Shown here piece by piece: positions 15,132-24,970 of a DNA stretch of 25,396 bases. Source of the stretch: a virus; IMG/VR virus record IMGVR_UViG_3300003323_000304, positions 1-25,396 of that record, one strand, 5' to 3'. The stretch's first letter is position 1. Each line of letters begins with the position of its first letter. The translations under genes were made by a program, and so were the position numbers. The notes under the pieces are model-generated. The model had not been told where the DNA came from. It did not search any database and saw only the letters and a list, made by a program, of their open reading frames with translations.

Positions 15132-18100
15132 ATGGCGACTGAGAACGAGAGAGTGCTCGCGGAAGCGGTCTACGAACTGCAGCGGCAGATGATCGCTCTC
15201 GGTGGCGCGCGGCAGCTCCCCTCGTCCACGTTCGACACCGGCGACGGCGTGCTCGGCATCATCGACGCCGCCGCCGCCGGTGCCGGCGCTGCCGCCGCGC
15301 TGCCGGCGATCGAGGAAGGCGTCGAGTACGGCGCCGGCTCGGTCGACGTCCTGCGGACCGAGATCGACGACCAGATGGACGGGCTCGACGACGTCCTGGA
15401 GGACGCCGCCTCGTCGCTCGCCGACGCCCGCGCCGACCTGGACGACGCGCAGGCCCTGATCGACGACAACTTCGAGCAGATGGGCGGCGACGTGCAGGCC
15501 GCGATCGTCGCCGCCGGCACCGCGGAGCAGTCCGCGGAGTACGCCCGCGACCTCGCCGAGCAGGCGGGCACCGACGCGTCGAACGCGAAGAGCCTCGCGC
15601 AGACCGCGCAGTCCGCCGCCGACGACGCGAACAGCGCCGCGCTCGCCGCGTCCGGGCTCGCGGCCGCGAAGGGCGAAGTCATCGTGCAGGTGTCGGCGCC
15701 GACCGGCTCCCGCGCGAACCCGGCGAACCTGTGGATCGACGTCACCCTCGACGCGAACGGGAAGCCGAAGAACACCCCGAACCGGTACAACACGACGACG
15801 TCGAAGTGGGAGCCGATCACCGACCAGAAGGTGATCGACGCCGCAGCGGTCGCCGCTGCAGCGCAATCCGCGGCCGCGACCGCGAAGAGCGCGGCCGACA
15901 CCGCCGACGCGAAGGCTGTCGCCGCGCAGGGGTCGGCGGACACCGCGCAGCAGACCGCGAACAACGCCGGACAGGCAGCCGCGGCCGCGCAGACCGCCGC
16001 TGACCAGGCGCGCACTGCCGCCGCTGTCGCTGCCGCGAAGGCCGTCTCGGTCGCCGCCGGTGTGCTCGTGAACGGCAGCGCGGAGTTCGACTTCGACTCG
16101 TGGGAAGCTGCCGGGAAGGGCACGATCGCCGTCCAGTCGACGAAGCGTCGCAGCGGCTCGAAGGCATGGCAGGTCGACCAGAACGGCGAGATCGTCCAGG
16201 GTTACTTCCCCGTGAAGGCCGGGGACACCTGGCGGTTCCGCGGGTGGTTCGCGGTCGACAACGCCGGCAACGTGTCCGGTCAGAACGGCGGGTTGCGCCT
16301 GCAGAAGTACAACGCCGCCGCCTCGTCTCCCGCGTGGTCCGACGCTGGGTCCTACAACCCGGGTAGCACCCCACGCGCCGACTTCACGATGGGCGAGGTG
16401 CTCTACACCGTGCCCGCGGACGTGACGCACCTCCGCGCACGCCTGGCGTTTGCGAACCCGGCCGGGATCCGGGTCTACTTCGACGACGTCGAGCTCGTGA
16501 ACGTCACCGACGCGAAGGCCGCGGCCGACGCCGCGGACACTGCGAAGGCAGCCGCGCAAGCCGCGCAGACGACAGCGGACCAGGCGAAGACCGCCGCGTC
16601 GAGCGCGCAGGGCGCCGCGGACGCCGCGCAGCGCACGGCCGACACTGCGAAGGCGAACGCGGCGACGGCGCAGACCGCGGCGGACAACGCGAACTCGCAG
16701 GCGCTCGCCGCTGCCGGCATCGCCAACGGCAAGGGGAAGGTGATCGTGCAGGTGTCGGCCCCGACCGGGGCGAATGCCGCGGCCGAGAACCTGTGGATCG
16801 ACATTTCGACGAACGCGTCCGGGGTGCCGAAGAACACCCCGAACCGCTGGAACTCGTCGACGTCGAAGTGGGAAGTCATCACCGACCAGAAGGTCGTCGA
16901 TGCTGCGGCCGCTGCGGCGACCGCGCAGAGCACGGCCGACACTGCGAAGGCGAACGCGGCGACCGCGCAGAGCACCGCGGACACGGCGAAGTCGAACGCG
17001 GCAGCGGCGCAGACCACGGCCGACCAGGCGAAGTCGGCGGCGGCGACCGCGCAGACCGCGGCCGACAACGCGAACTCGCAGGCGCTCACGGCGACGGGCC
17101 TCGCGAACGGCAAGGGGCGCGTGATCTACCAGGCGAGCGCACCCACGGGCACGAACGCGAACGCACAGAACCTGTGGATCCGGACGACCGATAACACGCC
17201 GTGGACGTACAACGGCAGCACGTGGGTGCAGGTCACGGACAAGACGGCGACCGACGCGGCGGCTGCGGCTGCTGCGGCGAACACCGCGGCGCAGAACGCG
17301 AAGGCGGCAGCCGACGCGGCGCAGGCCACGGCGAACGGTCGGCCGCTGATCCTGTTCTCGACGTCGGGTCCGTCCGGGAACGCGCCGACCGGGTCGACGT
17401 GGTTCCAGGTGAACACCGCGCAGTCGGTCGTCGGGCAGTGGCAGCAGACGGGCTCGGCGACGTCGCCCGTGTGGACGGCCCGGCCGATCACGTCCGAGGT
17501 GATCGCGAACCTGGACGTCGGGAAGCTCACCGCCGGGACGGCGGCGATCGCGACCGTCGTCGCGCAGAAGATCGCAGCGAGCACTGCCTCGTTCCAGACC
17601 GTGAACGTCGCGAACCTGTTCGTGACCTCGGGCGCGACGATGCAGCAGGCCGTGATCGACTACCTCTTCGCGAACGTCGTCATGGCGAAGAAGATCACCG
17701 CGGACATGATCGACGTCAACTCGCTGAACGGCGTCACGCTGACGGGGACCGTGATCCGGTCGGCGGCGTCCGGCCGACGGCTGGAGATCTTGCAGACCGA
17801 GGTCGTGTTCTACAACGACAACACCAGGGCCGGATCGATCCGAGGTGACTTCGGTCCGACCGGGTACGGCGGTCTGGTGCTCCGCATCGGCGATTGGTTG
17901 AGCGCCGGCCCGCTGGAGGCGCAGGGATCGAACACCGACCCGGCGTTCTACCAGACGACGCTGCTCAATCAGGGCGACTTCAACAACACCGGGACGATCC
18001 GAGCGAGCCGCGGCGGATCGAAGCCGAACGGCAAGGTGTCGCAGATGATCTCCGACGAGTTCGTTCTCGAATGGGGGAGTCCGCTCGACAACACCGGCGA

Positions 18101-18521
18101 GGGCCGGCGCCGGCGGGTCTTCGCGACCATCGACATGACGAACGGCATCGCGAAGGTCGACGCGGACGACTTCACAGTGAGAGGGACGTCGATCACCGCG
18201 GACACCGGGTGGAAGGACATTCCGGGCGTCCCGTCGACGATCAACTCGTTCGCGTACTACCGCGTGATCGGGAACCGGGTCTACCTCCGAGGTAGCTTCC
18301 AGCGTCCGAATCAAGCGCAGTTCGTGAACGGCTACACCCCCGTGGGGACCCTCCCCGCCGGCGCCCGCCCGTCGCAGTACATGCGCGTCGCGATCTCGAT
18401 GTACAACGGCATCACGGCGAACCTCATCATCGGCACCGACGGCTACATGCAGGTGGGCGCTTCGACCGGCGCCACCGCGGACACGGTCTACGTCGGCGGC
18501 GTCAACTTCCTGAACAACTAG
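15132..18521 (+). CDS. Large modular tail fibre / receptor-binding protein
   Basis: This 1129-aa protein has GGAGG upstream of the ATG. Domains in order: an attachment region (1-110) beginning MATENERVLAEAVYELQRQM; Ala-rich helical stalks; module A at about 178-238 (VQVSAPTG, NLWID, SKWEPITDQKV); a beta-sandwich about 311-461 resembling a carbohydrate-binding module (VNGSAEFDFDSWEAAGKG to VYFDDVELVNV); more stalk; module A copies at about 533-592 and 660-709, with a degenerate fourth at 736-783. The region about 784-930 (KKITADMIDVNSLNGVTLTG) is typical of siphophage tail-tip fibres. The final domain (about 1024-1129) reads FAYYRVIGNRVYLRGSF to LPAGARPSQY and resembles receptor-binding tips. 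It probably recognises a cell-wall glycan. Repeats inside it are listed separately. Confidence 0.88.
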   Translation: MATENERVLAEAVYELQRQMIALGGARQLPSSTFDTGDGVLGIIDAAAAGAGAAAALPAIEEGVEYGAGSVDVLRTEIDDQMDGLDDVLEDAASSLADARADLDDAQALIDDNFEQMGGDVQAAIVAAGTAEQSAEYARDLAEQAGTDASNAKSLAQTAQSAADDANSAALAASGLAAAKGEVIVQVSAPTGSRANPANLWIDVTLDANGKPKNTPNRYNTTTSKWEPITDQKVIDAAAVAAAAQSAAATAKSAADTADAKAVAAQGSADTAQQTANNAGQAAAAAQTAADQARTAAAVAAAKAVSVAAGVLVNGSAEFDFDSWEAAGKGTIAVQSTKRRSGSKAWQVDQNGEIVQGYFPVKAGDTWRFRGWFAVDNAGNVSGQNGGLRLQKYNAAASSPAWSDAGSYNPGSTPRADFTMGEVLYTVPADVTHLRARLAFANPAGIRVYFDDVELVNVTDAKAAADAADTAKAAAQAAQTTADQAKTAASSAQGAADAAQRTADTAKANAATAQTAADNANSQALAAAGIANGKGKVIVQVSAPTGANAAAENLWIDISTNASGVPKNTPNRWNSSTSKWEVITDQKVVDAAAAAATAQSTADTAKANAATAQSTADTAKSNAAAAQTTADQAKSAAATAQTAADNANSQALTATGLANGKGRVIYQASAPTGTNANAQNLWIRTTDNTPWTYNGSTWVQVTDKTATDAAAAAAAANTAAQNAKAAADAAQATANGRPLILFSTSGPSGNAPTGSTWFQVNTAQSVVGQWQQTGSATSPVWTARPITSEVIANLDVGKLTAGTAAIATVVAQKIAASTASFQTVNVANLFVTSGATMQQAVIDYLFANVVMAKKITADMIDVNSLNGVTLTGTVIRSAASGRRLEILQTEVVFYNDNTRAGSIRGDFGPTGYGGLVLRIGDWLSAGPLEAQGSNTDPAFYQTTLLNQGDFNNTGTIRASRGGSKPNGKVSQMISDEFVLEWGSPLDNTGEGRRRRVFATIDMTNGIAKVDADDFTVRGTSITADTGWKDIPGVPSTINSFAYYRVIGNRVYLRGSFQRPNQAQFVNGYTPVGTLPAGARPSQYMRVAISMYNGITANLIIGTDGYMQVGASTGATADTVYVGGVNFLNN
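16633..16666 (+). repeat. 34-bp perfect direct repeat in fibre gene, copy 1
   Basis: The 34 bases starting GCACGGCCGACACTGCGAAG recur identically at 16930-16963, 297 nt (99 codons) apart and in the same frame. They encode the stalk sequence TADTAKANAAT. Confidence 0.8.
16930..16963 (+). repeat. 34-bp perfect direct repeat in fibre gene, copy 2
   Basis: Second copy of the 34-bp stalk repeat at 16633-16666, identical throughout. A further 36-nt near-repeat with one mismatch links 16671-16706 to 17052-17087 (381 nt, 127 codons apart), also in frame. Confidence 0.8.
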
Positions 18522-18536
18522 CAGAAGGGCAACACC

Positions 18537-18917
18537 ATGACGGAGTTCCAGAAGCGCCCCGAGAAGGTCGAGGCGCTGCAGACCACCGACGAGAACCTCG
18601 ACGAAGCCGCGGCACTCGCCGGCGGGTGGGTCGGCGAGGACGGCACGCTGATGCTCCCGCTCTACGGCGAGGGCAGCGAGGTGCCGATCGAGACGGGGTG
18701 GTTCGTGTGGCACGACGCCTCCGGGCCGCGCGCGTGCGAGCCCGCGCAGTTCCTGGACGAGTGGGCGGAGGTCACCGACGGCCCGACGACCCGGCAGCGC
18801 GTCGAGTCGCTCGAAGCTCGCATCGAGGCGGTCGCCGAGCAGGCAGCCGCCGCGGAGCGAACCGCGGTCGAAGCGGCGGGGGCCGCGGCCGCGGCGGCGG
18901 CGGGAGCTACCTCGTGA
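18537..18917 (+). CDS. Small conserved phage protein preceding endolysin
   Basis: This 126-aa protein begins MTEFQKRPEKVEALQTTDEN and continues GGWVGEDGTLMLP, then ETGWFVWHDASGPRACEPAQ followed by FLDEWAEV. This is the layout of a widespread small phage protein with an N-terminal RP-x-x-VEA strand, a central GDW-like strand and a final KPDIF-x-x-TYEPV-like strand. Here the usual lysine-proline motif has become CEPAQF. It has an added C-terminal helix (about 88-126) that is Glu/Ala-rich and coiled-coil-like. The function of the family is not established as far as I know. An AGAAGGG site lies upstream, and the stop overlaps the endolysin start (GTGA), so the two are translationally coupled. Confidence 0.8.
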   Translation: MTEFQKRPEKVEALQTTDENLDEAAALAGGWVGEDGTLMLPLYGEGSEVPIETGWFVWHDASGPRACEPAQFLDEWAEVTDGPTTRQRVESLEARIEAVAEQAAAAERTAVEAAGAAAAAAAGATS

Positions 18918-19774
18918 GCCTCGCGCGGAAGACCGCGCAGGCCGCGCTGAACTACGCGCTCTCGCTCGTCGGCCGGTCCCGGAAGCTCGGGAACGCCGTG
19001 TGGACGAACTCGGCAGTGATCGACGACTGCGCGAGGTTCTGCTCGCACGTGCTCTTCGGGGGGAACCCCGGCCCGATCTCGTGGGTCGACACGTTCAAGA
19101 CCGCCGGCGACGGTAGCTACCACCGCGGGAAGGCGGGCCTGCAGCCGGGCGACGTCGTCCTGTTCGACTGGGAGGGGAACGGCGTCGGGAACCACGTCGA
19201 GTTCTGTCTCACCTCGCCGAGCTCGACCGGCGCGTTCACGACCGTGGGCGCGAACGGATCCGACACGGTCGCCGTGAAGGTCCGGAACCGGAACGGCTAC
19301 GTGCTCGGCTACTTCCGCCCCGCCTGGGGATCCGCATCACCGACCCCGGGGCAGCCGCAGCCGGGAACCGACAAGGAAGGCACCACCGTGACCGCGAACA
19401 TGTACAAGCGTCCCGACGGGACCGTGAACCTGATCGACCCGAACGGCGTCCAGGACTGGCACGTCCCGAACACCGATTACGTGAACCTGATCGGGTCGCT
19501 CGGGATCACCGCGCAGAAGACCCCGAAGAGCGTCCCGGCGAACGTGTTCTCGTTCCTGCAGACGCTCGCCGGGCAGAACCGCGCGGCGATCGCCGCCGCG
19601 GTCTGGGACCGGTCGCTCTCCGGGAGCAACGGCTCGCACAAGGCGGGCGAGCGCCTCGTCGGCGCCGACACGAAGGCGGGCACCGCGAAGGTGACCATCG
19701 ACGCGAAGGCGACCGACACCATCGCGGCGGGCGTGTTCTCGCGCATCGCCGCCCTGTTCACCTCGAAGAAGTAG
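18914..19774 (+). CDS. Endolysin with CHAP domain
   Basis: This 286-aa protein uses a GTG start overlapping the preceding stop, with GGGAG 7 nt upstream. CHAP domains are cysteine amidases/endopeptidases that cut peptidoglycan at lysis. Catalytic residues are visible: Cys39 in IDDCARFCSHVLFG and His94 in VGNHVEFCL, with Glu96 as possible third residue; the LQPGDVVLFDWEG strand between them is typical. A Pro/Gly linker (about 139-158) leads to a C-terminal region (159-286) with VNLIDPNGVQDWHVPNTDYV and then AVWDRSLSGSNGSHKAGERL, presumably cell-wall binding or multimerising. It lacks a signal peptide, so release depends on a holin, and membrane-protein genes follow. An in-frame internal start at the linker is annotated separately. 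Confidence 0.9.
   Translation: MSLARKTAQAALNYALSLVGRSRKLGNAVWTNSAVIDDCARFCSHVLFGGNPGPISWVDTFKTAGDGSYHRGKAGLQPGDVVLFDWEGNGVGNHVEFCLTSPSSTGAFTTVGANGSDTVAVKVRNRNGYVLGYFRPAWGSASPTPGQPQPGTDKEGTTVTANMYKRPDGTVNLIDPNGVQDWHVPNTDYVNLIGSLGITAQKTPKSVPANVFSFLQTLAGQNRAAIAAAVWDRSLSGSNGSHKAGERLVGADTKAGTAKVTIDAKATDTIAAGVFSRIAALFTSKK
19373..19390 (+). promoter_or_regulatory. Candidate internal ribosome binding site and start in endolysin
   Basis: AAGGAAGG (19373-19380) precedes an in-frame GTG at 19388 by 7 nt, exactly at the linker between the CHAP domain and the C-terminal region. Initiation here would give a free 128-aa C-terminal domain (19388-19774) beginning M-TANMYKRPDGT. The site is stronger than the one in front of the full-length start. 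Confidence 0.55.
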
Positions 19775-20704: not shown

Positions 20705-21213
20705 TCTTCGAGAACGGGATCGATCAGGGCACGGCGTCCGTGATCGGCGCGATCCTCGTCTTCGCGGGGGTCGTCGTCACCACCCGGCGCGCAAGCCGGG
20801 AGAGCAAGGACAAGGCCGAAGAGCAGAAGGAGGCGCAGGCGCAGGTCGTCGCAGAGGCGCTCCCGTTCGCGGAGAACCTCGACCTGACGAAGTACATCCG
20901 AGACGAGGTCCGAGAGGGGGTCCGGGTCGAGACAGAGCAGCTCCGGGCCGATCGCGATCAGGATCGTGCCGAACTCAACGACATGAAGAAGATCCTCGTC
21001 AACGCGTACGACCGGGTGGACCGGCTGCGGCACGGGTTCCTGCAGCACGTCGACAACGTGCGGCGGCAGTGGGGCCGGGCGGAACAGCCGCCGCCCGTCG
21101 CGCCGCACATGATGGAGCTACTAGAGGACTCGGACGGGGACACCTGGACTCGGATCCGGATCCAGCAGCTCCGCGAGAGCGTGCCCGACGACGACAACGA
21201 GAGCTACGGCTGA
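20701..21213 (+). CDS. Single-TM coiled-coil membrane protein in lysis cassette
   Basis: This 170-aa protein starts at the ATG overlapping the previous stop. Residues about 11-29 (SVIGAILVFAGVVVTTRRAS) form one membrane span near the N-terminus. Residues 30-125 are highly charged and helical (KAEEQKEAQAQVVAEA, VETEQLRADRDQDRAEL), and the C-terminus is acidic. This layout resembles the i-spanin-like or accessory membrane proteins found at the end of lysis cassettes in actinophages, but no outer-membrane partner is visible and the topology is unproven. It is the last gene before the strong terminator at 21221. Confidence 0.72.
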   Translation: MIFENGIDQGTASVIGAILVFAGVVVTTRRASRESKDKAEEQKEAQAQVVAEALPFAENLDLTKYIRDEVREGVRVETEQLRADRDQDRAELNDMKKILVNAYDRVDRLRHGFLQHVDNVRRQWGRAEQPPPVAPHMMELLEDSDGDTWTRIRIQQLRESVPDDDNESYG

Positions 21214-21220
21214 ACACGAG

Positions 21221-21263
21221 AACGCCCCCCGGGGATCCGCTTGGATCCTCGGGGGGCGTTTTT
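21221..21263 (+). terminator. Strong intrinsic terminator of late operon
   Basis: An 18-bp stem with one G-T wobble pairs 21221-21238 (AACGCCCCCCGGGGATCC) with 21243-21260, around a GCTT loop. A run of five T's (21259-21263) follows on the + strand. It begins 8 nt after the last lysis-cassette stop codon. The reverse direction lacks a good T-run, so it mainly ends + strand transcription, although it may slow transcription from the converging minus-strand genes. Confidence 0.92.
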
Positions 21264-21287: not shown

Positions 21288-21313
21288 CCCGGACGGATCA
21301 TCGGCCGTCCGGG
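21288..21313 (-). terminator. Hairpin over the 3' end of the surface protein gene
   Basis: CCCGGACGG (21288-21296) and CCGTCCGGG (21305-21313) form a perfect 9-bp stem with an 8-nt loop that spans the stop codon of the minus-strand gene. There is no T-run beyond it in the minus direction, so it may be only a 3' end stabiliser or weak terminator. Confidence 0.4.
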
Positions 21314-22335
21314 GTGCTGTTCGCCCGGGAGCGGGCCGCACGGCGCCGCACGAGCACGATCCCGCCGGACGCCATGAGTGCGAGCGCGATCAGAGCGGGC
21401 CAGAGCAGGTCGTCGGCGCCCGTGAAGGCGAGTTCACGGCTGCCGTTCGAGGTGTCGGCCGCGACCGGCGCCTTGGAACTGGGGCCGGAGGGCGTATTCG
21501 TAGCAGGCGTGTCCGTGGGCGACGGGACCGTCGGGGTCGACGCCGAGGGCGCGGGCGTAGAGGACGCGGGCGGCGTCGTCCCGGCCGTCGGGCTCGGCGA
21601 ACCCGGCGCGGGGGTCGTCGGAGCGTCGGACGGTTCGGGGGTGGTCGGCTCGCCAGAGGGCGGCGTCGTGCTCGGCTCGTCGGTGGGTGTCGGCGTCGAT
21701 GGGGTGCCTCCCGGGGTGGGCTCGTCGGTCGGGGTCGGGGTGGTCGGCTCGTCGGTGGGCGTCGGCGTCGGCTCGCAGCTCGCGCGCTCCGCGTCGGTCA
21801 GCGGCCGCGTCGAGTAGACGAAGGTCAGCGCCGGGTTGTTCTCGTCCACGAAGTCCCACGAGTTCGTCTCGGCGTTGTAGTAGCTGGTCCACAGGTAGTG
21901 GACGGTCGACACCTTGACGACGCCCGCCGAGCACTGCGGGTCGCCCTCGTGCACGACGACCTTCGTCCGGTCGGCAGGCTTCGGCGGCTTGACCGGCGTC
22001 GTCGGCTCCGGCTCCGGTGCCGGCGTCTCGACAGGGGTCGTCGGCTCCGGCTCGGGCGCGGGCGTCTCGACCGGCGTCGTCGGCTCGGGCTCCGGGGTGA
22101 CGACGGGCGTCGTCGGCTCCGGCTTCGGCGCGCACTCGCCGAGCTTGTCGCCGTGCTTCACGTGCGCCTTCGCCGCCGCGGCGTCGACCGTGATCGTGTG
22201 GCCGTTGTGGCAGAGCGTCACGGGCGTGTGCCCGTGGCCGTGTCCGCCCGTCGCGTACGCGGGTCCGGTGACCCCGCCGCTGACGACGAGCGCGAGGCCG
22301 AGCCCCGCGATCGTCGCGATCGTCCGCTTTCGCAT
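21298..22335 (-). CDS. Secreted LAxTG sortase-anchored surface protein
   Basis: This 345-aa protein has a signal peptide (basic MRKR, hydrophobic TIATIAGLGLALVVSGGVTG, likely cut after PAYA) and a C-terminal sorting signal: LAFTG at residues 302-306, a hydrophobic span (LLWPALIALALMASGGIVLV) and a basic RRRAARSR tail. LAxTG is the recognition motif of class E sortases of high-GC Actinobacteria. After the signal peptide is a Cys-containing domain (VTLCHNGHTITVDAAAAKAH ending GECAP), then PEPTTPVETPA repeats, then a second Cys domain (QCSAGVVKVSTVHYLWTSYY to ERASC), then Pro/Thr/Ser/Asp-rich wall-spanning repeats. It is a host-type surface protein on the strand opposite to the structural genes. 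The SD AAGGGAA lies 5 nt before the ATG. Function is unknown; receptor masking, adhesion or lysogenic conversion are inferences. Confidence 0.88.
   Translation of the reverse strand: MRKRTIATIAGLGLALVVSGGVTGPAYATGGHGHGHTPVTLCHNGHTITVDAAAAKAHVKHGDKLGECAPKPEPTTPVVTPEPEPTTPVETPAPEPEPTTPVETPAPEPEPTTPVKPPKPADRTKVVVHEGDPQCSAGVVKVSTVHYLWTSYYNAETNSWDFVDENNPALTFVYSTRPLTDAERASCEPTPTPTDEPTTPTPTDEPTPGGTPSTPTPTDEPSTTPPSGEPTTPEPSDAPTTPAPGSPSPTAGTTPPASSTPAPSASTPTVPSPTDTPATNTPSGPSSKAPVAADTSNGSRELAFTGADDLLWPALIALALMASGGIVLVRRRAARSRANSTPDGR
21998..22120 (-). repeat. Tandem repeats in surface protein gene (PEPEPTTPVETPA-like)
   Basis: GTCGTCGGCTCCGGCT-like units recur at 21998, 22037, 22076 and 22109 (periods 39, 39 and 33 nt, all multiples of three). 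They encode 13-residue and 11-residue Pro/Glu/Thr units between the two cysteine-containing domains. A further TPTDEP-rich repeat region lies at about 21640-21780. Confidence 0.75.
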
Positions 22336-22428: not shown

Positions 22429-22845
22429 TCAGACGTGAGCAGCGAGCGCTTCGATCGTCGACACGATCTCTCGGGGGCCGAGGTGCGCGGCGAAGTAGTC
22501 CCCGTCGGCGTTCGAGATCTGCAGCCGCGTCCGGTTCGCGTCGATCTGGTAGACGTCGATCACGTCCGAGTCCTCGTCGAGCGGGATCGTGAGCTGGTCC
22601 GCGCCGACGTCGGGCTGGCGCCAGTCGGACACGACGCGGGTGTCGAGCCGCACGTCGTGCTCGAACCCGTAGACCTTCGTGCGCATCCCGTCGGCGTGCT
22701 CCAGGGCGGCAGCTTCGGAGGTGAACGCGACGCCCGGGCGAAGGACGACGTGCTCGCGAACGAAGTCGGGGTCGTCACTGTAGGCGCGCAGGCAGCGCGA
22801 GCCGTCGCGGCAGAGCAGGACCGGCCGGTACTCGATGTGCGCCAC
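22429..22845 (-). CDS. Hypothetical protein, minus-strand cluster
   Basis: This is a 138-aa protein if it starts at the GTG with GGAGG 7 nt upstream; an alternative GTG at 22851 overlaps the preceding stop but sits only 1 nt after the GGAGG. The frame is open much farther upstream, but that is a shadow of other genes. The N-terminus (AHIEYRPVLLCRDGSRCLRA) has two cysteines; the body is acidic and strand-rich (DVRLDTRVVSDWRQPDVGAD), ending in a helix (PREIVSTIEALAAHV). I do not recognise a family. It follows the neighbouring 159-aa gene with a near-zero gap, so the two are probably co-transcribed. Confidence 0.72.
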   Translation of the reverse strand: MAHIEYRPVLLCRDGSRCLRAYSDDPDFVREHVVLRPGVAFTSEAAALEHADGMRTKVYGFEHDVRLDTRVVSDWRQPDVGADQLTIPLDEDSDVIDVYQIDANRTRLQISNADGDYFAAHLGPREIVSTIEALAAHV

Positions 22846-22847
22846 GG

Positions 22848-23327
22848 TCACGCCTCCACGACGAGGTCGGCGGTCCGGACGACCGCGCGGTTCCCGTTGC
22901 CGGTGTCGAGCACGAGCTGCTCGTCGCGGACCTCGACGATGACGCCGGCGCGGTCGCCGTGGGTCTTCACCGGCAGGCCGACGATCCACGGGGTCAGCTC
23001 GTCGGAGAAGTAGTCGCCGCCGCCGAGTAGCAGCAGCTCGCCGTCCACCTCGACGTACTCGCCGACGCTGTCGAAGAGCACGCGGTGCTCGCCGACGCCG
23101 AAGTCCTGCCACATGTCTTCGGCGAACTCGCCGGGACGGTTCGCCACGAGCCACGACCGGTCGAAGCGCTCGGGCACCAGGGTGCGGCGGAAGTAGGGGT
23201 GCCCGTTGTGGTAGCAGACGAGCACGTCGTCGCCATCTTCGGCGGCGGGGGCGAGGTAGTTCGTCCAGCGCCCGGCGCCGTCGGTGTAGTCGGCGATCGG
23301 CTGCAGGGGCTCGATGTTGGTCGGCAT
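22848..23327 (-). CDS. Hypothetical protein with C-terminal SH3/KOW-like segment
   Basis: This is a 159-aa acidic protein. The N-terminal two thirds carry GRWTNYLAPAAEDGDDVLVC followed by YHNGHPYFRRTLVPERFDRS and an acidic helix (GEFAEDMWQDFGVG). The last 45 residues (GLPVKTHGDRAGVIVEVRDE to RAVVRTADLVVEA) have the short-strand pattern of small SH3-like or KOW-type barrels, often seen in nucleic-acid-associated proteins. AGGAA precedes the ATG at a good distance. No family is assigned; the barrel call is a pattern impression. It sits between two other minus-strand unknowns in one operon. Confidence 0.72.
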   Translation of the reverse strand: MPTNIEPLQPIADYTDGAGRWTNYLAPAAEDGDDVLVCYHNGHPYFRRTLVPERFDRSWLVANRPGEFAEDMWQDFGVGEHRVLFDSVGEYVEVDGELLLLGGGDYFSDELTPWIVGLPVKTHGDRAGVIVEVRDEQLVLDTGNGNRAVVRTADLVVEA

Positions 23328-23351: not shown

Positions 23352-23558
23352 TCAGTCGAAGGCGATGTGACGCAGGCGGGAGGTCGCGCGGATCTCGCGC
23401 GTCGACCGGGCCTCCGCCGGCAGGTCGACGATCGCCGTCGCGCCGCTCACAGTCGTGAGCATGTACGACAGGCGTCCCGTCCGGCCGTAGCCGAGGAAGA
23501 GCGGGGCGAAGAAGTGGCCCCCGCGGACCTCGTGGATGACCTGCAGTCGCTTGTCCAT
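23352..23558 (-). CDS. Small hypothetical protein, first of minus-strand operon
   Basis: This 68-aa protein begins MDKRLQVIHEVRGGHFFAPL, followed by FLGYGRTGRLSYMLTTVSGA, and ends EARSTREIRATSRLRHIAFD. The ATG has AAGGG about 9 nt upstream, which decides the start; the longer open frame into the intergenic region is rejected. It is the promoter-proximal gene of the minus-strand cluster, diverging from the HTH gene. The strand-rich, basic character suggests a small folded protein. No family is recognised. Confidence 0.66.
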   Translation of the reverse strand: MDKRLQVIHEVRGGHFFAPLFLGYGRTGRLSYMLTTVSGATAIVDLPAEARSTREIRATSRLRHIAFD

Positions 23559-23673
23559 GATCTGAACCCTTCGATGTGTGGTGACAACGGACAGTGAACC
23601 ACACGACAGAACGTTGCGCAACACGTAACGAAAGTTTGACGAGAGCGCACAACCGTGTGTTAGGTTCTCCGGC
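23559..23673. promoter_or_regulatory. Divergent regulatory region with inverted repeats
   Basis: This 115-bp gap separates the minus-strand operon from the HTH gene. It holds a GTTGCGCAAC palindrome (23613-23622) within a wider imperfect dyad CGTT..CG..CG..AACG (23612-23630). An inverted repeat GTGTGGT (23576-23582) / ACCACAC (23598-23604) lies nearer the minus-strand gene. A related ACCGTGTGTT at 23652-23661 is in the + orientation. Together there are three GTGTGKT-like half-sites. These are candidate operators for the HTH protein; no binding has been shown. Confidence 0.55.
23636..23666 (+). promoter_or_regulatory. Promoter for HTH gene, probable leaderless transcript
   Basis: TTGACG (23636-23641) resembles a -35 box and TAGGTT (23661-23666) matches the TAnnnT -10 pattern, with a 19-nt spacer; TGTTAG (23658-23663, 16-nt spacer) is an alternative. 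The start codon at 23674 lies just 7 nt after the -10 element and no ribosome binding site precedes it, as expected when transcription begins at the ATG itself. Confidence 0.5.
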
Positions 23674-23958: not shown

Positions 23959-24320
23959 ACCGCCGCCGCATCGCCTACCCGCTCGGCTTCGTGCTGCTCG
24001 GCGTCGCGATCGGGATCTCGTGGACGTGGGGCGCTCCCGGCACCCTGAACGGCGCGACGCTGATCGGGATCGGCATCGTCGCTCTCGCGCTGCTCGTGAT
24101 CGCCGGCGCCCGCCGCGACGACGAGGCCCCCGCGGAGCCCGCTCCGAAGCGCGGCGCCGTCGTGCACTACCTCGCGACCGACCCGGTCAGCGCGAAGTGC
24201 ATCGGGTACGACGGCGACGTCGCGATCGTCTCCGACGCGCAGACGCACCTCGTTACCGAGACGTGGCGGCACACCGGCCGCGGCTGGAAGCGCGAGAACC
24301 CCGCCGAGTTCACGTTCTGA
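23955..24320 (+). CDS. Two-TM membrane protein coupled to regulator
   Basis: This 121-aa protein uses a GTG start overlapping the HTH stop by 4 nt. Residues about 7-27 (AYPLGFVLLGVAIGISWTWG) and 33-51 (GATLIGIGIVALALLVIAGA) are membrane spans. The hydrophilic remainder (KRGAVVHYLATDPVSAKCIG to RGWKRENPAEFTF) is strand-rich and faces the cytoplasm by positive-inside reasoning. The stop overlaps the resolvase start (TGATG). I do not recognise the family; a membrane protein next to a phage regulator raises the possibility of superinfection exclusion, which is inference only. Confidence 0.75.
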   Translation: MNRRRIAYPLGFVLLGVAIGISWTWGAPGTLNGATLIGIGIVALALLVIAGARRDDEAPAEPAPKRGAVVHYLATDPVSAKCIGYDGDVAIVSDAQTHLVTETWRHTGRGWKRENPAEFTF

Positions 24321-24970
24321 TGCAGTGGCACGTGATCGGGATCGACCCGTCCATGACCGGAACCGGTGTCGCCGTGCTCCGACCCGGCGCTCCCTTCCGG
24401 CCGATCCTGGAGCTGGTGAAGACCGACCCCGTGAAGGTCCCGAAGGGCGTCGATGCGACGATCCCGCAGCTCTACCGGCTGCGCCGCATCGTGAGCACGG
24501 TCAAGCGGATCGCGCTCACCGGGCGCGAGCCGGGCGACCATACGTGCGTCGTCATCGAGGGCACGGCGTACGTCCACGAGCAGCAGCAGCACCAGGACAC
24601 CAGGGCGATGCTCCGCGGGATCCTGCTCGACGTCATGGAGCGCCAGGGGCGCCCGGACCAGGAGGCCGGGACGCTCGGCGCGACGATCATCGTCCCGCCC
24701 AAGTCCCTGAAGCGCTACGTCGCCCGCGACGGCAGCGCCTCGAAGGAGTACATGAAGCAGCGCGCCCGGGACTACGCCTTCCCCGGGATCGACTTCACCC
24801 CCACAGCTCGCAGTACCGCGATGGACGACAACCTCGTGGACGCGTACGGACTCGCGGCGATGGCCTGCCGCGTGCTCGGGTCCCCCGTGGAGCCGAGTCC
24901 CCAACGGGTCGACCCTGGCGCCCTTACGGGCGTCTGGTGGCCCCCCTACATGAGAGAGAGCACGACATGA
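24320..24970 (+). CDS. RuvC-like Holliday junction resolvase
   Basis: This 216-aa protein has its ATG overlapping the preceding stop (TGATG). It shows the RuvC/RNase H-like acidic residues in order: Asp9 in VIGIDPSMTGTGVAVL, Glu80 in CVVIEGTAYVHEQ, and Asp170/Asp174 in the terminal MDDNLVDAYGLAAMA. The segment IVPPKSLKRYVARDGSASKE matches the substrate-binding loop of this family. Phage members cut branched DNA and help resolve concatemers before packaging. Length is close to the usual 150-200 aa with a short C-terminal tail (VWWPPYMRESTT). The next gene overlaps its stop (ATGA). Confidence 0.87.
   Translation: MQWHVIGIDPSMTGTGVAVLRPGAPFRPILELVKTDPVKVPKGVDATIPQLYRLRRIVSTVKRIALTGREPGDHTCVVIEGTAYVHEQQQHQDTRAMLRGILLDVMERQGRPDQEAGTLGATIIVPPKSLKRYVARDGSASKEYMKQRARDYAFPGIDFTPTARSTAMDDNLVDAYGLAAMACRVLGSPVEPSPQRVDPGALTGVWWPPYMRESTT

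Follow-up and report, generated by a model that had tools for sequence, protein, structure and literature searches.

Why would a phage carry a gene for a wall-anchored surface protein, and what could it gain from displaying one? The question is raised by a viral contig in IMG/VR, whose entire 25,396 bases make up the window analysed here. On the − strand of this window lies an open reading frame that a preliminary description, made from the sequence, had read as encoding a wall-anchored protein. The anatomy claimed for it was confirmed, and its parts are as follows.

21298..22335, − strand: LAxTG surface-protein gene, 345 aa, ATG start (open reading frame, sorting-signal HMMs and a relative in a second contig)
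22252..22335, − strand: signal peptide, residues 1–28, with AxA site AYA|T (AHA|T in the relative), from sequence, hydropathy and alignment
22132..22251, − strand: module 1, residues 29–68, HGHGHTPVTLCHNGHTITVD..AHVKHGDKLGEC, conserved in the relative and recurring in exported-type proteins
21970..22131, − strand: EPTTPV repeats, residues 69–122, with a 39-nt and a 33-nt period (repeat analysis)
21772..21969, − strand: exchangeable middle domain, residues 123–188, two Cys, dissimilar to its counterpart in the relative
21436..21771, − strand: Pro/Thr/Ser-rich stalk, residues 189–300, about 110 residues (alignment and composition)
21301..21435, − strand: cell-wall sorting signal, comprising LAFTG, a hydrophobic span and an RRRAARSR tail (alignment, HMMs and motif rule)

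The predicted export signal has a basic start, a hydrophobic core and an AxA site, as judged by sequence and hydropathy, and is present in the relative too. No lipobox Cys was found at the cleavage site (region GPAYATGG), and the first Cys does not occur before residue 42. At the other end of the protein, LAFTG (residues 302–306) is followed by one hydrophobic span and then by RRRAARSRANSTPDGR. The most hydrophobic 18-residue stretch starts at residue 312 (mean KD 2.09), and the second (1.92) falls within the signal peptide. Module 1 is a 40-residue Cys/His module and the middle domain is about 65 residues long. GC3 of the gene is 0.93, matching the confident phage genes, and its GC2 is unusually high because of the Pro, Thr and Ala content.

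A sortase-motif search, which the preliminary description had suggested as a check, found a sorting signal of the LAFTG type. The NCBIfam LPXTG_anchor model TIGR01167 was passed at 16.4 bits against a cut-off of 15.9, although six-frame searches with this model exceed the cut-off in 9 of the 14 control genomes too. The match to NF058582 (Microco_LAVTG) is borderline, scoring 22.8 bits by hmmscan and 27.5 by six-frame search against a cut-off of 27, which none of the 14 control genomes exceeded in six-frame search. When a sorting signal was defined as the motif plus a hydrophobic span plus a basic tail, the surface-protein gene was the sole match among 124 open reading frames of the window, and no match occurred among 19,433 open reading frames in 100 third-order Markov copies of it. 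The reading of the product as a predicted phage-borne, exported, sortase-type surface protein holds on these sequence features.

Next, we considered whether the gene belongs to the phage. On the + strand the window runs, from left to right, through portal, head and tail genes, tape-measure, tail proteins, a CHAP-like lysin and small membrane-type genes, ending at 21213. One long tail protein (15132–18521) contains many Ala-rich coiled-coil-like repeats alternating with short W-containing stretches, a make-up not the same in the second contig. A hairpin terminator follows this late operon at its 3′ end and then comes the − strand surface-protein gene, convergent to the terminator as had been described. 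Three further − strand genes lie upstream of it, and the next + strand operon starts with genes for an HTH regulator and a RuvC-like protein. The features of this region, with identities to the second contig (L002, IMGVR_UViG_3300045407_000006), are listed below.

21221..21260, no strand assigned: terminator hairpin between the late operon and the surface-protein gene, 18-bp stem followed by TTTTT, also in L002
22356..22431, − strand: conserved non-coding control region (a likely assignment), containing TTCTATCCTGCA, 96% identical to L002
22432..22848, − strand: upstream cassette gene, 75% identical in L002
22848..23327, − strand: cassette gene, 79% identical in L002
23352..23561, − strand: first cassette gene in the window, small, absent from L002
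23674..23958, + strand: HTH regulator, divergent from the cassette (PHROG 4583, transcriptional repressor, E 8.6e-14)
24320–24970, + strand: RuvC-like resolvase gene (PHROG 159, E 1.9e-22)

Because late genes lie on one side of the surface-protein gene and the HTH and RuvC-like phage genes on the other, it is internal to the phage rather than located at the edge of a prophage. Its protein class is typical of hosts, and the preliminary description had named host chromosome flanking a prophage end as the outcome that would overturn its view; but phage genes follow the locus and the same order recurs in an independent viral contig. The DNA at 21298–22335 is phage DNA: synteny with L002 ruled out the host-flank reading, which we consider scarcely credible.

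L002 carries the only other copy of the gene that we found, and the comparison between the two genomes proved informative about the protein. Common to both is the order of two cassette genes, the surface-protein gene, the terminator and the gene at the end of the late operon, the last being 78% identical between them. The L002 product (P0002, 320 aa) retains the signal peptide, module 1, repeats, stalk, LAFTG and tail, with 74% identity to the window protein over residues 1–99 and 63% over residues 180–345. The middle domains, by comparison, are unrelated (BLASTP E 3.4). Over 53 aligned codons, 37 differ non-synonymously, and changes are about equally frequent at all three codon positions. Each middle domain has one Cys near each end, and structure models of the two were of low confidence (pLDDT 48 and 38), too low to serve for a fold search. 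A swapped middle domain in a conserved frame would fit a part that faces a variable partner, on a protein that we infer to be surface-exposed; the swap itself does not discriminate among receptor masking, adhesion and exclusion.

The same comparison bears on the idea that the gene is mere cargo, captured from a host surface-protein gene and functionless for the phage. The protein is built like the surface proteins of hosts, and the sorting signal is closest to the LAVTG model, apparently named for Micrococcales or for relatives of Micrococcus. But the gene is intact and in frame in two phages that differ by about 15–20% in DNA, the DNA upstream of it is conserved above the neighbouring genes, and a scan of 84,980 species genomes, within its sensitivity, returned no close relative of the whole protein. 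We therefore regard cargo as highly unlikely.

The 76 bp 5′ of the surface-protein gene are 96% identical between the window and L002, while the genes around it reach 81–87%; a conserved control region of its own is therefore probable for this gene. A second non-coding stretch, in the intergenic region by the HTH gene (23586–23673), is 94% identical to L002, again above the surrounding genes, and both stretches are likely control regions. A promoter scan found no sigma-70 consensus promoter; TTCTATCCTGCA in the conserved block contains an actinobacterial-type TAnnnT element, offered here as no more than a suggestion. An exact match to the core of the upstream block was found in no IMG/VR contig besides L002. 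In both phages the surface-protein gene is the last of a conserved leftward cassette oriented against the late and early genes, and the cassette itself varies, gaining and losing genes, as 23352–23561 is missing from L002. The label 'moron' given to the gene in the preliminary description thus stands only in part: the conserved private upstream region agrees with it, but the gene is the last of a conserved cassette in both phages, and no empty site or relative lacking the gene was found.

This arrangement could also be taken to indicate a surface factor of the lytic cycle, displayed late, that prevents loss of virions on debris or changes lysis of the wall. The gene does face the late operon tail to tail (3′ to 3′) at its lysis end, and no Phage_integrase match was found in the 25 kb of the window or in the L002 contig, both of which are genome fragments. 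It is, however, encoded on the strand opposite the late genes behind its own conserved upstream region, and its cassette partners have no link to lysis (22432–22848 and 22848–23327 match no family in Pfam, PHROGs or NCBIfam). A late lytic role is in our judgement decidedly unlikely.

A homolog search, another check proposed at the outset, yielded the L002 relative but no homolog of known function. By tblastn, no close relatives were found in isolate phages or plasmids. In a local control the low-complexity filter hid even the L002 protein at one tblastn limit and not at another, so these negatives rule out only near relatives. The scan of 84,980 species genomes returned only a Flavobacteriales lipoprotein sharing module 1. 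Scans with the 22848–23327 gene, the gene that ends the late operon and the DNA 5′ of the surface-protein gene each gave at most one contig, L002. A PDB sequence search gave no meaningful match, and weak Pfam matches to Trypan_PARP and Cutinase were dismissed as composition or chance.

Module 1, by contrast with the whole protein, recurs elsewhere. It was found in the Flavobacteriales lipoprotein (L009, 4211–5059), in a lipoprotein on another viral contig (L006, 5689–6114) and at four places in other Bacteroidota genomes (L028–L031), where it forms part of large exported-type proteins; in two of these four, the frames have a C-terminal tail resembling a secretion-sorting tail. The recurrent pattern spans 35–40 residues (CHNGHT...AH..HGD..G.C) and corresponds to no Pfam family. 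Its Cys and His residues might bind metal.

The affinities of the phage itself are mixed. Its capsid protein is 66–68% identical to those of Gordonia nyceiraeviruses and Streptomyces abbeymikolonvirus-type phages, whereas for the lysin the closest match is in Curtobacterium phage Barebow (57% across half of the length), with small viral contigs of 16–17 kb also among the nearest. The first half of the lysin gene (18893–19774) is common to small phages of 16–18 kb, including Barebow and several viral contigs. With half a lysin as in Barebow-type small phages and a capsid gene of the Gordonia/Streptomyces phage type, the genome is a mosaic. The host is probably a member of the Microbacteriaceae, among soil-type actinobacteria. 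Gordonia phages Ewald and Meyran, whose capsid gene is related, carry an integrase and a repressor as their leftward genes at a comparable place, and by analogy this layout hints that the cassette side is the lysogeny side of the genome.

These features allow us to propose how the protein might act. Either in the course of infection or in a carrier cell, leftward transcription of the gene would start in the conserved block 5′ of it. Its product would leave the cell by the general secretory route and be cleaved at AYA|T. LAFTG would then be joined to peptidoglycan by a sortase of the class E type accepting LAXTG; in actinobacteria of soil and fresh water, class E sortases do accept this motif (PMC5148588), and since no sortase gene is encoded within the window, a host enzyme would be needed. 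Once anchored, the protein would present module 1 at the outer tip of the Pro/Thr stalk, with about 110 residues separating the exchangeable middle domain from the anchor, and would change the surface of the infected cell in a way from which the phage benefits, possibly keeping out other phages through a receptor that it masks or occupies. Our preferred interpretation, adopted tentatively, is accordingly worded: a phage-encoded, wall-anchored protein of the host surface that alters the infected cell to the benefit of the phage, with exclusion as its likeliest use.

Exclusion of other phages appears the single likeliest use because the cassette runs leftward, opposed to the lytic genes, as does ltp of TP-J34, and because exchange of a domain would be apt where the partner changes. 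The next likeliest use, close behind, would be adhesion by carrier cells. In its own right, a fitness or conversion gene by which carrier cells attach to surfaces or to one another, with no relation to other phages, is possible but doubtful. Its model is SasX, a sortase-anchored protein on phiSPbeta-like prophages with roles in colonization and aggregation (PMC10232760), and the recurrence of module 1 in large exported-type proteins of Bacteroidota is consistent with it; but no lysogeny gene was seen in either fragment, and no known adhesin domain was found in the protein.

The proposed surface-altering protein can be set beside four known systems. SasX of phiSPbeta-like staphylococcal prophages likewise places a complete sortase-anchored protein of the host's type in a phage genome (PMC10232760), a likeness drawn from description. 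It comes from another phylum and carries LPXTG instead of LAFTG. SasX is borne by a prophage; in the two genomes here, both incomplete, no Phage_integrase match was found. The phage described here is known only from metagenome fragments, and the middle domain of its protein is exchanged between relatives. Ltp, the superinfection-exclusion lipoprotein of Streptococcus phage TP-J34, is also phage-made, exported and held at the surface, and is produced from a leftward lysogeny module that runs counter to the remainder of the genome (PMC3952083). Ltp, however, is a lipoprotein with HTH repeats, whereas the protein described here has a wall-sorting signal, no lipobox Cys after its signal peptide and no Pfam or PHROG match to such repeat domains. 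Gp41 of Cutibacterium acnes phage Aquarius is an exported surface protein of an actinobacterial phage for which superinfection resistance has been proposed (PMC11480721); its anchor is an N-terminal membrane segment instead of a sortase signal, and its function is also unproven. The chaplins of Streptomyces, substrates of class E sortase with LAXTG, share the LAxTG motif, hydrophobic span, basic tail and export signal (PMC5148588), but they are chromosomal morphogenesis genes of the host and their domains differ.

A phage-borne sortase-anchored protein (SasX) and an exported exclusion candidate in an actinobacterial phage (Aquarius gp41) are therefore already known, and we found no sortase-type proteins of actinobacteriophages in the open-access literature. 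New here are the LAxTG signal, its presence in an actinobacterial phage, and the exchange of one domain in an otherwise constant frame. A broader generalization, on balance unlikely, is that a family of actinobacterial phages uses a modular, sortase-displayed exclusion protein whose middle domain is swapped from phage to phage within a constant outer module and anchor. If this were true, each phage would dress its host in a different coat, shutting out different competitors. The locus would offer a simple experimental system for how phages alter the coat of the cells they occupy, and it opens the question of whether swapping the middle domain changes which other phages enter.
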